Source: Dissulfurirhabdus thermomarina (GTDB lineage: Bacteria; Desulfobacterota; Dissulfuribacteria; Dissulfuribacterales; Dissulfurirhabdaceae). Taken from it: a DNA stretch of 64,000 nucleotides. The translations under genes were made by a program, and so were the position numbers. Of this stretch, positions 5,505 through 11,650 are shown piece after piece. The stretch is taken from contig NZ_JAATWC010000003.1 of NCBI RefSeq assembly GCF_012979235.1, positions 1 through 64,000 of the forward strand, written 5' to 3'. Under the pieces are notes generated by a model. It saw nothing but the letters and a program-made list of their open reading frames with translations, was not told the origin of the DNA and searched no databases. Within the stretch, counting starts at the first letter, position 1. Every line of letters begins with the position of its first letter.

Positions 5505-5554
5505 AGCCTCTGGTATCTCATGCAGCAGCCTTGGTCCCGGAAAGAAGGCGCAAG

Positions 5555-8344
5555 ATGAAAAAATCTCCGATCCGGCCCCTCTCCCTCCTTTTCCTCTCCT
5601 TTCTCTGCCTTTCCGCCTCTTCCTTCGCCGCCGGCCCGCCCGACCTCAAGCATGGGGCCGGCCACATCATCGCCGCAGGGGGCGGCCATTCCTTCGCCAT
5701 CCGCCAGGACGGCTCCCTCTGGGCCTGGGGAGAGAACCGGTTCGGGCAACTCGGCGACGGCACCAAGACCGACCGGCCGGCCCCCGTCAAGGTCCTGGAC
5801 AAGGTGGCCGCCGTGGCGGCGGGCCCCCGGCACACCCTGGCCATCCGCCAGGACGGCTCCCTCTGGGCCTGGGGAGAGAACCGGTTCGGGCAGCTCGGCG
5901 ACGGCACCAAGACCGACCGGCCGGCCCCCGTCAAGGTCTTGGACAAGGTGGCCGCCGTGGCGGCGGGTGAACGCCATTCCCTGGCCGTCACCCGGGACGG
6001 GAAGCTCTACGCCTGGGGCGCCAACGACTACGGGCAGCTCGGCGACGGCAGCTTCACCTCCCGGCTCCGCCCGGTGGAGGTCATGACCCGGGTCCGGGCC
6101 GTGGCCGCCGGGCCGGACCATTCCTTCGCCATCAAGAAGGACGACACCCTCTGGGCCTGGGGCAAGAACTACGACGGGCAGCTCGGCGACGGCTCCCGCT
6201 CCAAGAAGAACAAGCCCGTTCGGGTCCTCCTCCGCGTGGCCGCCGTGGCCACCGGCCAGTACCACACCCTGGCTCTCAAGACCGACGGCTCCGTCTGGGC
6301 GTGGGGACTCGGCAACTACGGGCAGGTCGGGGACGGCACCGACGAGCGCCGCCTCCAGCCCGTCAAGGTCCTGGACGGGGCCGTCTGGATCGCCGCCGGC
6401 GACTACCACTCCCTGGCGGTCCGGAAGGACGGCTCTCTCTGGGCCTGGGGCTGGAACCGATTCGGGCAAGTGGGGACCGGTGCCGCCAAGGTGCTCAAGC
6501 CCGCCCGCGTGGCTACCGGCGTGGTGGCCGCCACCGGTGGAGCGGGCCACACCGTGGCCCTCCTCAAGGACGGGACGGTGGCGGCCTGGGGGCTCAACGA
6601 GGCGGGCCAGCTCGGCACGGGGGGCGGCGCCGGCGGGCCGAAGCCGCGGCCCGTGCTGAGCTACTCCAACGTGGCCGACCTCTCGGTGAGCCTCGAAGAC
6701 CGCCTGACCCTCAAGGAGGACACCAGCGCCACGAAGTCCTTCAGCGCCAAGACCTCCACTGGGAAGCCCGTGTCCCCCTCCGTGGCCTCGCCGCCCGCCC
6801 ACGGGAAACTCGTGCTCACGGCGACCACCTTCACCTACGTACCCGCCAAGGACTTCAGCGGCACGGACGCCTTCGCCCTGAACTTCAAGGATCCCAAGGG
6901 CCGGATGGTCCAACGGCGGGTCTCCGTCACCGTGGTCCCGGTGGACGACCCGCCGGTGATCGCCCCCGTCCGGGTGGCCGCCGCCTTGAAGCCGGGCGAG
7001 GTCAAGCGCTACCCCCTCAAGGCCACCGACGTGGACTCGAGGGACATCTCCTTCGTCTTCACCGACCGGAGCGGCCGGGAGACCACTCCCGCCGTCAAGG
7101 GCCTCGGGCTCTCCATCGCCGGCGGCCAACTCGTCCTCCAGGCGCCGGCCAAGGCCGCCGGCAAGGTCACCCTCGGTGACCTCCAGGTCCGGGCCAAGGC
7201 CGGCGGCCAGGTCTCGGCCAACTTCGTGGCCCTGCCCGCCGCCGTCACCGTGTCCGAGGAGCAGCCGCCCCCGCCGGCCGCGCCCTCCGCCCTCCAGGTG
7301 GTGGCCGTCGGGCTCCACCATTCTCTCCTCGTCAAGAAGGACGGCTCCCTCTGGGCCTGGGGCCGAAACGACTACGGCCAACTCGGCGACGGCACCACCA
7401 CCAACCGGACCCGGCCCGTCCGGGTCATGACCGGCGTGGCGGGCGTGGCGGCCGGGGCCTACCATTCCTTCGCCGTCAAGAAGGACGGCTCCCTCTGGGC
7501 CTGGGGCCGAAACGACGCCAGCCAGCTCGGCGACGGCACCACCGCCGGCCGTACCCGGCCCGTCCGGGTCATGACCGGCGTGGTGGACGTGGCGGCCGGG
7601 GCCGAGTATTCCTTCGCCGTCAAGAAGGACGGCTCCCTCTGGGCCTGGGGCGGCAACAGCCTCGGCCAGCTCGGCGACGGCTCCCGGAAGGACCGCGCCC
7701 GCCCCGTCCAGATCCTGGCCGGCATCAGCCGGGTGGACACCCGGTCCTACTATTACTTCGGGACGGAGAAGGCCCGGAGCTTCGCGGTCAAGGCGGACGG
7801 CTGGCTCCTCGGGTGGGGTGACAACGACTACGGCCAGCTCGGCGACGGCTCCCGGGCGGGGAGACCCACCCCGCGCCGGATCACCCAGGGCGTGGTGGAC
7901 GTCGCCACGGGCAACTACCACACCCTCGCCCTCACCCGCGACCGCGTGGTGCTGGCCTGGGGCCGGAACAACTTCGGCCAGTTCGGCAACGGCTCCACCG
8001 CCGACAAGCCCTGGCCCGCCAAGGCCATCTACAACGTGGTGGCCATCGCCGCGGGCGACGAACATTCCTTCGCCATCCGGGACGACGGGACCCTCTGGGC
8101 CTGGGGACACAACAACAACGCCCAGTTGGGCTTCGGCGACACCAAGGACCGACACTCCCCCAAGAAACTCATGGAGGGCGTGGCCGCCGTGGCCACCGCC
8201 CCCGGCTGGGGACACACCCTGGTGGTGAAACGGGACGGCACCGTCTGGGCCTGGGGCCGGAACAACTACGGCCAGGTCGGCAACGGCTCCACCGCCGACG
8301 TCCTCCGGCCGGTGCAGGTCCTCTCCGGGGCCGCCGTCCGCTAG
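5555..8344 (+). CDS. Exported protein with two seven-blade RCC1 propellers
   Basis: A 929-residue protein with a signal peptide (residues 1-26, SLLFLSFLCLSASSFAA). Seven RCC1-type repeats, each about 48 residues with the core SLWAWGxNxxGQLGDG, cover about 32-370. A non-repeat region of roughly 220 residues follows, containing an Ig/cadherin-like stretch (FTYVPAKDFSGTDAFALNF). Seven more RCC1 repeats cover about 590-929. Repeats 1 and 2 are nearly identical in DNA. RCC1 propellers are protein-binding scaffolds; here the export signal makes a surface or periplasmic binding role likely, but the ligand is unknown. The ATG at 5555 has AAGAAGG upstream; a TTG at 5531 is less likely. The stop overlaps that of tsaC by 4 bases. 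Confidence 0.85.
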   Translation: MKKSPIRPLSLLFLSFLCLSASSFAAGPPDLKHGAGHIIAAGGGHSFAIRQDGSLWAWGENRFGQLGDGTKTDRPAPVKVLDKVAAVAAGPRHTLAIRQDGSLWAWGENRFGQLGDGTKTDRPAPVKVLDKVAAVAAGERHSLAVTRDGKLYAWGANDYGQLGDGSFTSRLRPVEVMTRVRAVAAGPDHSFAIKKDDTLWAWGKNYDGQLGDGSRSKKNKPVRVLLRVAAVATGQYHTLALKTDGSVWAWGLGNYGQVGDGTDERRLQPVKVLDGAVWIAAGDYHSLAVRKDGSLWAWGWNRFGQVGTGAAKVLKPARVATGVVAATGGAGHTVALLKDGTVAAWGLNEAGQLGTGGGAGGPKPRPVLSYSNVADLSVSLEDRLTLKEDTSATKSFSAKTSTGKPVSPSVASPPAHGKLVLTATTFTYVPAKDFSGTDAFALNFKDPKGRMVQRRVSVTVVPVDDPPVIAPVRVAAALKPGEVKRYPLKATDVDSRDISFVFTDRSGRETTPAVKGLGLSIAGGQLVLQAPAKAAGKVTLGDLQVRAKAGGQVSANFVALPAAVTVSEEQPPPPAAPSALQVVAVGLHHSLLVKKDGSLWAWGRNDYGQLGDGTTTNRTRPVRVMTGVAGVAAGAYHSFAVKKDGSLWAWGRNDASQLGDGTTAGRTRPVRVMTGVVDVAAGAEYSFAVKKDGSLWAWGGNSLGQLGDGSRKDRARPVQILAGISRVDTRSYYYFGTEKARSFAVKADGWLLGWGDNDYGQLGDGSRAGRPTPRRITQGVVDVATGNYHTLALTRDRVVLAWGRNNFGQFGNGSTADKPWPAKAIYNVVAIAAGDEHSFAIRDDGTLWAWGHNNNAQLGFGDTKDRHSPKKLMEGVAAVATAPGWGHTLVVKRDGTVWAWGRNNYGQVGNGSTADVLRPVQVLSGAAVR
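5695..5967. repeat. Tandem duplicate of one RCC1 blade
   Basis: Bases 5695-5823 and 5839-5967 are the same apart from two substitutions, with a period of 144 bases (48 codons). Other blades in the gene are much more diverged, so this pair is a recent duplication. Confidence 0.85.
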
Positions 8345-10958: not shown

Positions 10959-10985
10959 TTGACGCGGCGGCCAGGACAATATAAA
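10959..10985 (+). promoter_or_regulatory. Candidate promoter of the TetR-family gene
   Basis: TTGACG (10959-10964) and TATAAA (10980-10985) are spaced 15 bases, shorter than ideal. The operator-like palindrome begins at the next base, so a bound repressor would cover the transcription start. Confidence 0.5.
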
Positions 10986-11016
10986 TGAATGAATCTGCAT
11001 TCACATTTATTGAATG
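10986..11016. promoter_or_regulatory. FadR-type operator, palindrome plus an extra half-site
   Basis: TGAATGAATCTGCATTCA (10986-11003) is an 18-bp palindrome with perfect 6-bp half-sites TGAATG/CATTCA. A third half-site, TGAATG, lies at 11011-11016. The pattern closely resembles the TGAATGA-N5-CATTCA operator known for the Bacillus TetR-family fatty-acid regulator FadR (YsiA). The downstream gene encodes a protein of that type, so autoregulation is inferred. Confidence 0.65.
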
Positions 11017-11041
11017 TGGCGCACCCCCGCCCTCCGCCCGC

Positions 11042-11650
11042 ATGAAGATCTCCGACAAACACGACAAGATCGTCCAGGCGGCCATCCGCATCTTCGCCCG
11101 GAACGGGTTCTTCAATTCCCGGATCGCCGAGATCGCCAAGGAAGCCAACGTGGCGGACGGGACCATCTACCTCTACTTCAACAATAAGTACGACATCCTC
11201 ATCACCATCTTCGAGGAGGAGATCGGCAAGATCATCGCCCGGGTGCGCCAGGAGGTCAACACCGCCGCCGACCCCCGGGAAAAGCTCGAGCGCTTCGCCC
11301 AGCTCCACCTGAGCCTCGTGGAGGAGAACCGCGACCTGGCGGAGGTGATCCAGGTGGAACTCCGCCAGAGCAGCAAGTTCATGAAGGACTACCGCAACAA
11401 GAAGTTCGCGGAATACCTCAACATCATCTCTCATATCGTCCGCGAGGGCTAGGCCGAGGGGATCTTCCGCAAGGAGGTCCTCCCCGGCGTCTTCAAGCGG
11501 GCCTTCTTCGGCGCCCTCGACGAGATGTCGCGGTTCTGGGTGCTCTCACCCAAGAAGAAATACAGCGTCGGGACCGCGGCCCGCCAGATCAGCCAGTTCT
11601 TCCTGGAGGGGATCCTCCGCGAGGACGCCCCGCCGCGGGCGGACGGCTGA
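11042..11650 (+). pseudogene. TetR/AcrR regulator (FadR-like) interrupted by an in-frame TAG
   Basis: Codons 1-136 encode a TetR DNA-binding domain (IVQAAIRIFARNGFFNS, then IAEIAKEANVADGTIYLYF) and the start of the ligand domain, with motifs typical of fatty-acid-responsive FadR/YsiA-like repressors. A TAG at 11450-11452 stops the frame. The same frame continues without shift for 65 more codons (AEGIFRKEVLPGVFKRAFFG through FFLEGILRED) to a TGA at 11648. Related proteins usually have Gln at this spot (EGQxEG), one base from TAG. The 136-residue product lacks the C-terminal dimerisation helices. It could be a true nonsense mutation, suppressed, or a sequence error. If annotators trust the stop, the gene is 11042-11452. 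Confidence 0.8.

Follow-up and report, generated by a model that had tools for sequence, protein, structure and literature searches.

A FadR-like TetR regulator gene interrupted by an amber codon in Dissulfurirhabdus thermomarina and its probable role in sulfur and energy metabolism

The stretch of 64,000 nucleotides analysed here (the window) contains a regulator gene interrupted by an in-frame TAG, and its protein, broken in this strain, probably represses genes of sulfur and energy metabolism as a TetR-family member not characterised so far. On the basis of sequence comparison, we consider it likely that this FadR-type repressor controlled both its own gene and a set of sulfur and energy genes, and that the TAG truncated it recently. 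To our knowledge, the control of their own energy genes by sulfate reducers and sulfur disproportionators is little understood; a box common to dsr, sat, nuo, and atp genes, together with a single TetR regulator, would be a candidate master switch, and a strain lacking it would be a constitutive mutant of natural origin.

The gene of the TetR-family, FadR/YsiA-like regulator (11042-11650, forward strand) was assigned from its open reading frame, Pfam domains, and structure matches, and comprises 203 codons, with a start ATG at 11042 and a TGA at 11648-11650 that closes the frame. Codon 137 (11450-11452, forward strand) is TAG, where relatives had been said to carry Gln in the preliminary description; a tblastn search against 109 related loci, taken from two partly overlapping collections, found Gln there without exception. 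When the whole genomes of 60 relatives were searched, no internal stop was found in any other clear orthologue. The 65 codons preserved after the stop (11453-11647, forward strand) would code for the last two helices (residues 148-168 and 176-191), as judged from conservation and the structure model. The earlier statement that this part keeps its frame and a family-like sequence is borne out, and there is no sign of decay: none of the 19 columns with at least 95% conservation deviates, the GC3 value is 0.97, and this part is as similar to 16 relatives (identity, 0.742) as these are to one another (0.734). A simple neutral simulation limits the divergence since the stop to less than about 0.05-0.1 substitutions per site. 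Because the frame after the stop is undecayed and the simulated divergence is low, the change to TAG is regarded as recent, and the likeliest interpretation is that an amber mutation recently abolished the function of the protein by removing both dimerisation helices.

Further genes split by TAG were sought in the window and rejected, since the other same-frame stop pairs all proved to be ordinary gene boundaries. Elsewhere in the window, a long ORF (5531-8344, forward strand) is made up of RCC1-like repeats (SLWAWGxNxxGQLGDGT). The context of the TAG (11446-11456) is GGCTAGGCC, derived from CCAGG. CCAGG is a Dcm-type site, and 5-methylcytosine amber hotspots are known at such sites in E. coli; its frequency in the window is as expected, and a deamination hotspot as the origin of the TAG is a guess.

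The TAG might be absent from the living population, either as an error of sequencing or assembly or as a mutation confined to the sequenced culture. We regard this as rather unlikely, while it fits the presence of the TAG in this genome only and the lack of decay after the stop; moreover, regulators are commonly lost in laboratory culture. A base-call error is very unlikely, because the assembly of D. thermomarina SH388T was obtained from an isolate with MiSeq at 1384x coverage by Unicycler, which has Pilon as one of its dependencies (PMC7463578). For the same reason, the TAG is poorly explained by strain mixing or base error, and assembly error was set aside as unlikely. The published assembly has 36 contigs (two under 200 bp) and 2,461,642 bp, with a longest contig of 713,503 and an N50 of 240,491, and an older, independent assembly (ASM1049943v1) is mentioned in the same paper (PMC7463578); the genome analysed here has 34 contigs and 2,461,349 bases. 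A mutation acquired in culture is possible and would be compatible with a recent loss of function. Among the three origins proposed earlier (recent change, suppression, or error), the recent change is thus retained, while error is unlikely in view of the isolate assembly and suppression in view of the tRNA genes, PylS, and stop codon usage described below.

The protein obtained by reading through the TAG has the N-terminal HTH domain (Pfam TetR_N, PF00440, 3e-12) and the helical C-terminal domain (TetR_C_4, PF08359, 2e-26) of the TetR family. Its AlphaFold model has a mean pLDDT of 88 and the closest solved structures are those of Bacillus FadR (TM 0.84-0.90), confirming that the protein is FadR-like; the recognition helix VADGTIYLYFNNK is identical to that of B. 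halodurans FadR. The score with the NCBIfam FadR equivalog (NF053878) is 188.1 bits, under the curated cut-off of 200 bits, which nine orthologues with 173-195 bits also miss. In TetR proteins, the last two helices form the dimer interface. According to the model, the truncated product of 136 residues ends within the helix 120-138 and lacks the helices 148-168 and 176-191, so that this strain does not have the intact dimerisation helices of a functional TetR repressor. Two further TetR proteins are encoded in the genome and have different recognition helices. A second intact paralogue, which would have told against the preliminary description, was looked for in the genome and none with the same recognition helix was found; the regulator is single-copy.

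The operator TGAATGAATCTGCATTCA, an 18-bp imperfect palindrome (10986-11003, forward strand), is intact in the promoter of the gene and conserved in relatives, in agreement with its earlier assignment as an intact FadR-type operator. Like Bacillus-type FadR, the gene thus has a palindromic operator of the TGAATGA type at its own promoter. The predicted fadR promoter is composed of a -35 element TTGACG (10959-10964, forward strand) and a -10 element TATAAA (10980-10985, forward strand), the latter of which directly abuts the operator, a geometry of autorepression. A second TGAATG half-site is located after the operator at 11011-11016, giving CATTCA-N7-TGAATG at 10998-11016.

A first scan of the genome with the operator gave 20 matches, compared with 2 in a reversed control, and the genes beside the matches were not fad genes. 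A PWM derived from the fadR operators with a fixed 18-mer pattern was biased toward the outer positions, and alignment on the 14-bp core revealed the shared motif TGAATNNNNATTCA (10990-11003, forward strand), whose strong form is TGAATGAATNNNCATTCA. Of 38 loci checked, 37 have this core box before fadR. Perfect TGAATNNNNATTCA occurs once in the window, at fadR, and eight times in the 2.46-Mb genome (reversed-pattern control, 0), so that the operator stands well beyond chance expectation.

The eight perfect boxes precede fadR, the RsbRD_N-dsrM operon, atpI-atpB, an operon of a YeeE-type sulfur transporter with TusA, a class III cytochrome c gene, a multihaem cytochrome gene, fhs (formate-tetrahydrofolate ligase), and ppdK (pyruvate phosphate dikinase). 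The sat and dsrC boxes of the D. thermomarina genome are imperfect (at least one mismatch each), and its dsrA is not preceded by a perfect box. At seven of ten sites (fadR, dsrM, both cytochromes, ppdK, fhs, and sat), the box starts 1-13 nt downstream of the -10 element of a promoter whose -35 element is TTGACA/G; lying just after a sigma-70 -10 element, it has the position expected of a repressor site. The yeeE, atpI, and dsrC boxes are located upstream of an obvious promoter or at a distance from one, and simple repression does not fit every site. In five genomes, a gene of an M16-type peptidase is divergent from the YeeE-type transporter gene, with the box between them (G000:C4:155057, L266, L287, L295, and L304).

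In Dissulfuribacterales and several further Thermodesulfobacteriota lineages, the box is located at promoters of genes for dissimilatory sulfur metabolism and energy conservation. Sixteen genomes of the order each have 3-17 copies of the perfect core (control, 0-4), and its neighbours in seven of these sixteen include dsrA, dsrC, the dsrM operon, sat, the gene of a DHH/DHHA2 protein, which we read as a Mn-type pyrophosphatase, nuoA, atpI, YeeE, and cytochromes. Further Thermodesulfobacteriota genomes have it before dsrA, dsrC, dsrM, sat, pyrophosphatase, nuoA, atpI, and fadR; in genomes linked to Desulfobulbaceae and Desulfurivibrionaceae, it is again found before fadR, the dsrM operon, nuoA, and atpI, and part of these genomes also have it before dsrA, tusA, or cytochromes. 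The dsrC box is kept in 26 of 30 genomes, mostly at about -190 to -206, and is absent from family f2 and from genomes G016 and G031, where the regulator is present, which speaks against the FadR-like protein as its binder. When 111 boxes in 14 genomes were assigned, with nuoA and nuoB counted at the same site, 74 preceded fadR or a sulfur or energy target (dsrA, dsrC, dsrM operon, sat, PPase, adk, yeeE/tusA, nuoA, atpI, cytochrome c, fhs, and ppdK) and 37 were without an assigned target. Desulfocarbo indianensis has the fadR site only, followed by etfB, and no sulfur target; in Desulfarculaceae (L076, L079, L089, and L103) etfB is located directly after the orthologue. The presence of etfB in fatty-acid operons is a Bacillus-type arrangement. 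These differences in the target set suggest a shift of the regulon between lineages. The neighbourhood of the regulator gene shows conserved synteny across orders (L067-L110): the adjoining gene is purD in this genome (9525-10820, reverse strand) as well as in several further lineages, and elsewhere it is a GreA-like gene, though these neighbours are not obvious targets.

For the protein that binds TGAATNNNNATTCA, the FadR-like protein is the best candidate, because the box is present at fadR in nearly all genomes, the recognition helix is identical to that of Bacillus FadR, and the FadR operator is known. It is unlikely that another transcription factor binds the sulfur-gene boxes and that the FadR-like protein controls itself only. 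Such a division would explain why the outer TGAA/CATTCA of the fadR operator is often absent at sulfur-gene boxes, and why G014 retains six boxes at atpI, nuo, pyrophosphatase, YeeE, and sat (L247 and L284-L288) without a detectable regulator; however, the common 14-bp core is found at fadR in nearly all genomes, including G010, where a divergent homologue (47%) has the core box 21 nt before its start in the core form only, and no other TetR protein of the D. thermomarina genome has the same recognition helix. The G014 genome is about 90% complete, and the regulator may be in the missing sequence or may represent another natural loss. Since the ARG box of ArgR has the core TGAATwwwwATTCA, nearly identical to the present core, ArgR was also considered as the binder; it was rejected because its gene is absent from all 8 genomes tested, and no arg gene was recognised next to a site.

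The preliminary description expected that loss of the regulator would derepress fatty-acid degradation, as for a classical FadR that regulates beta-oxidation. This is improbable. Bacillus FadR does provide the closest solved structures, and the orthologue lies directly before etfB in Desulfarculaceae (L076, L079, and L089) as in Bacillus-type fad operons, but the operator sites at beta-oxidation genes that characterise a Bacillus-type FadR are lacking in the D. thermomarina genome. No fad gene was found beside any of its eight perfect sites or the near-perfect sites examined; the high-scoring operators adjoin genes of sulfur respiration, ATP synthase, cytochromes, and C1 pathways instead. Ten orthologues with 173-195 bits on the NCBIfam model are under its cut-off, and the host is an obligate chemolithoautotroph (PMC7463578).

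Readthrough of the TAG into a full-length protein by a suppressor tRNA, pyrrolysine, or programmed readthrough, which the preserved frame and conserved residues downstream would accommodate, is very improbable, since none of the 44 tRNA genes found and typed in the genome has a CUA anticodon (all are normal), matches to PylS are weak, below the cut-off, and likewise found in most control genomes, TAG is the commonest stop and closes 31 of 65 confident ORFs, and relatives have Gln codons, not TAG, at the position. The suppressor tRNA and pyrrolysine proposed earlier were rejected on the first two grounds and reassignment of TAG on the third; the set of 44 tRNAs compares with 47 published (PMC7463578), Ile-GAT and Ala-TGC being missing from it.

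Returning to the truncated sulfur and energy repressor, we propose the following mechanism. The FadR (YsiA)-type TetR protein would occlude its own promoter and those of the sulfur and energy genes by binding TGAATNNNNATTCA (strong form TGAATGAATNNNCATTCA), and a putative effector, acyl-CoA by analogy with Bacillus FadR, would release it. The recent change of CAG to TAG would leave a 136-residue product with the DNA-binding domain, and because two TetR dimer helices are lost, this product very probably no longer binds. The predicted consequence is constitutive derepression of the dsrM operon, sat, dsrC, atp, cytochromes, fhs, ppdK, the YeeE transporter, and fadR. The obligate chemolithoautotroph D. 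thermomarina grows by sulfur disproportionation; it has a full sulfate-reduction pathway, yet does not grow by sulfate reduction (PMC7463578); in such an organism, a constitutive regulon may be tolerable. With slightly better than even confidence, we extend this proposal to a FadR-type TetR protein that would globally repress the genes of dissimilatory sulfur respiration and of oxidative phosphorylation (dsrAB, dsrC, dsrMKJOP, sat, pyrophosphatase, nuo, atp, and cytochromes) in several Thermodesulfobacteriota orders, possibly linking acyl-CoA or lipid state to respiration, and that was recently lost in this obligate sulfur-disproportionating autotroph.

Among the open-access papers searched, we found no description of a FadR-type or other TetR regulator of dsr, nuo, and atp genes. 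HcpR of Desulfovibrio has been proposed as a regulator of sat and apsAB (PMC545781), and resembles the present system in the predicted control of sat in sulfate reducers through a promoter box. It belongs to another protein family (CRP/FNR) and has a different box, TTGTGANNNNNNTCACAA; its described targets do not include dsrAB, and atp and nuo do not appear to be named (PMC545781). A TetR-type repressor with a 16-bp palindrome has been proposed for sulP sulfate-uptake clusters of Desulfobacteraceae (PMC11887813), and shares with the present case the combination of a TetR protein, a palindrome, and sulfur metabolism; that repressor is local, beside the transporter cluster with its 16-bp operator, and has no genome-wide energy regulon. 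The closest known system is FadR (YsiA) of Bacillus subtilis and B. halodurans (PDB 3whb, 3whc, and 5gp9), with which the present protein shares, at 36-37% identity, the fold, the recognition helix, a TGAATGA-type operator, and apparent autoregulation. In contrast to Bacillus FadR, the protein described here is under the NCBIfam cut-off and interrupted by TAG, and its predicted regulon consists, in most lineages seen, of genes for sulfur and energy metabolism rather than beta-oxidation.
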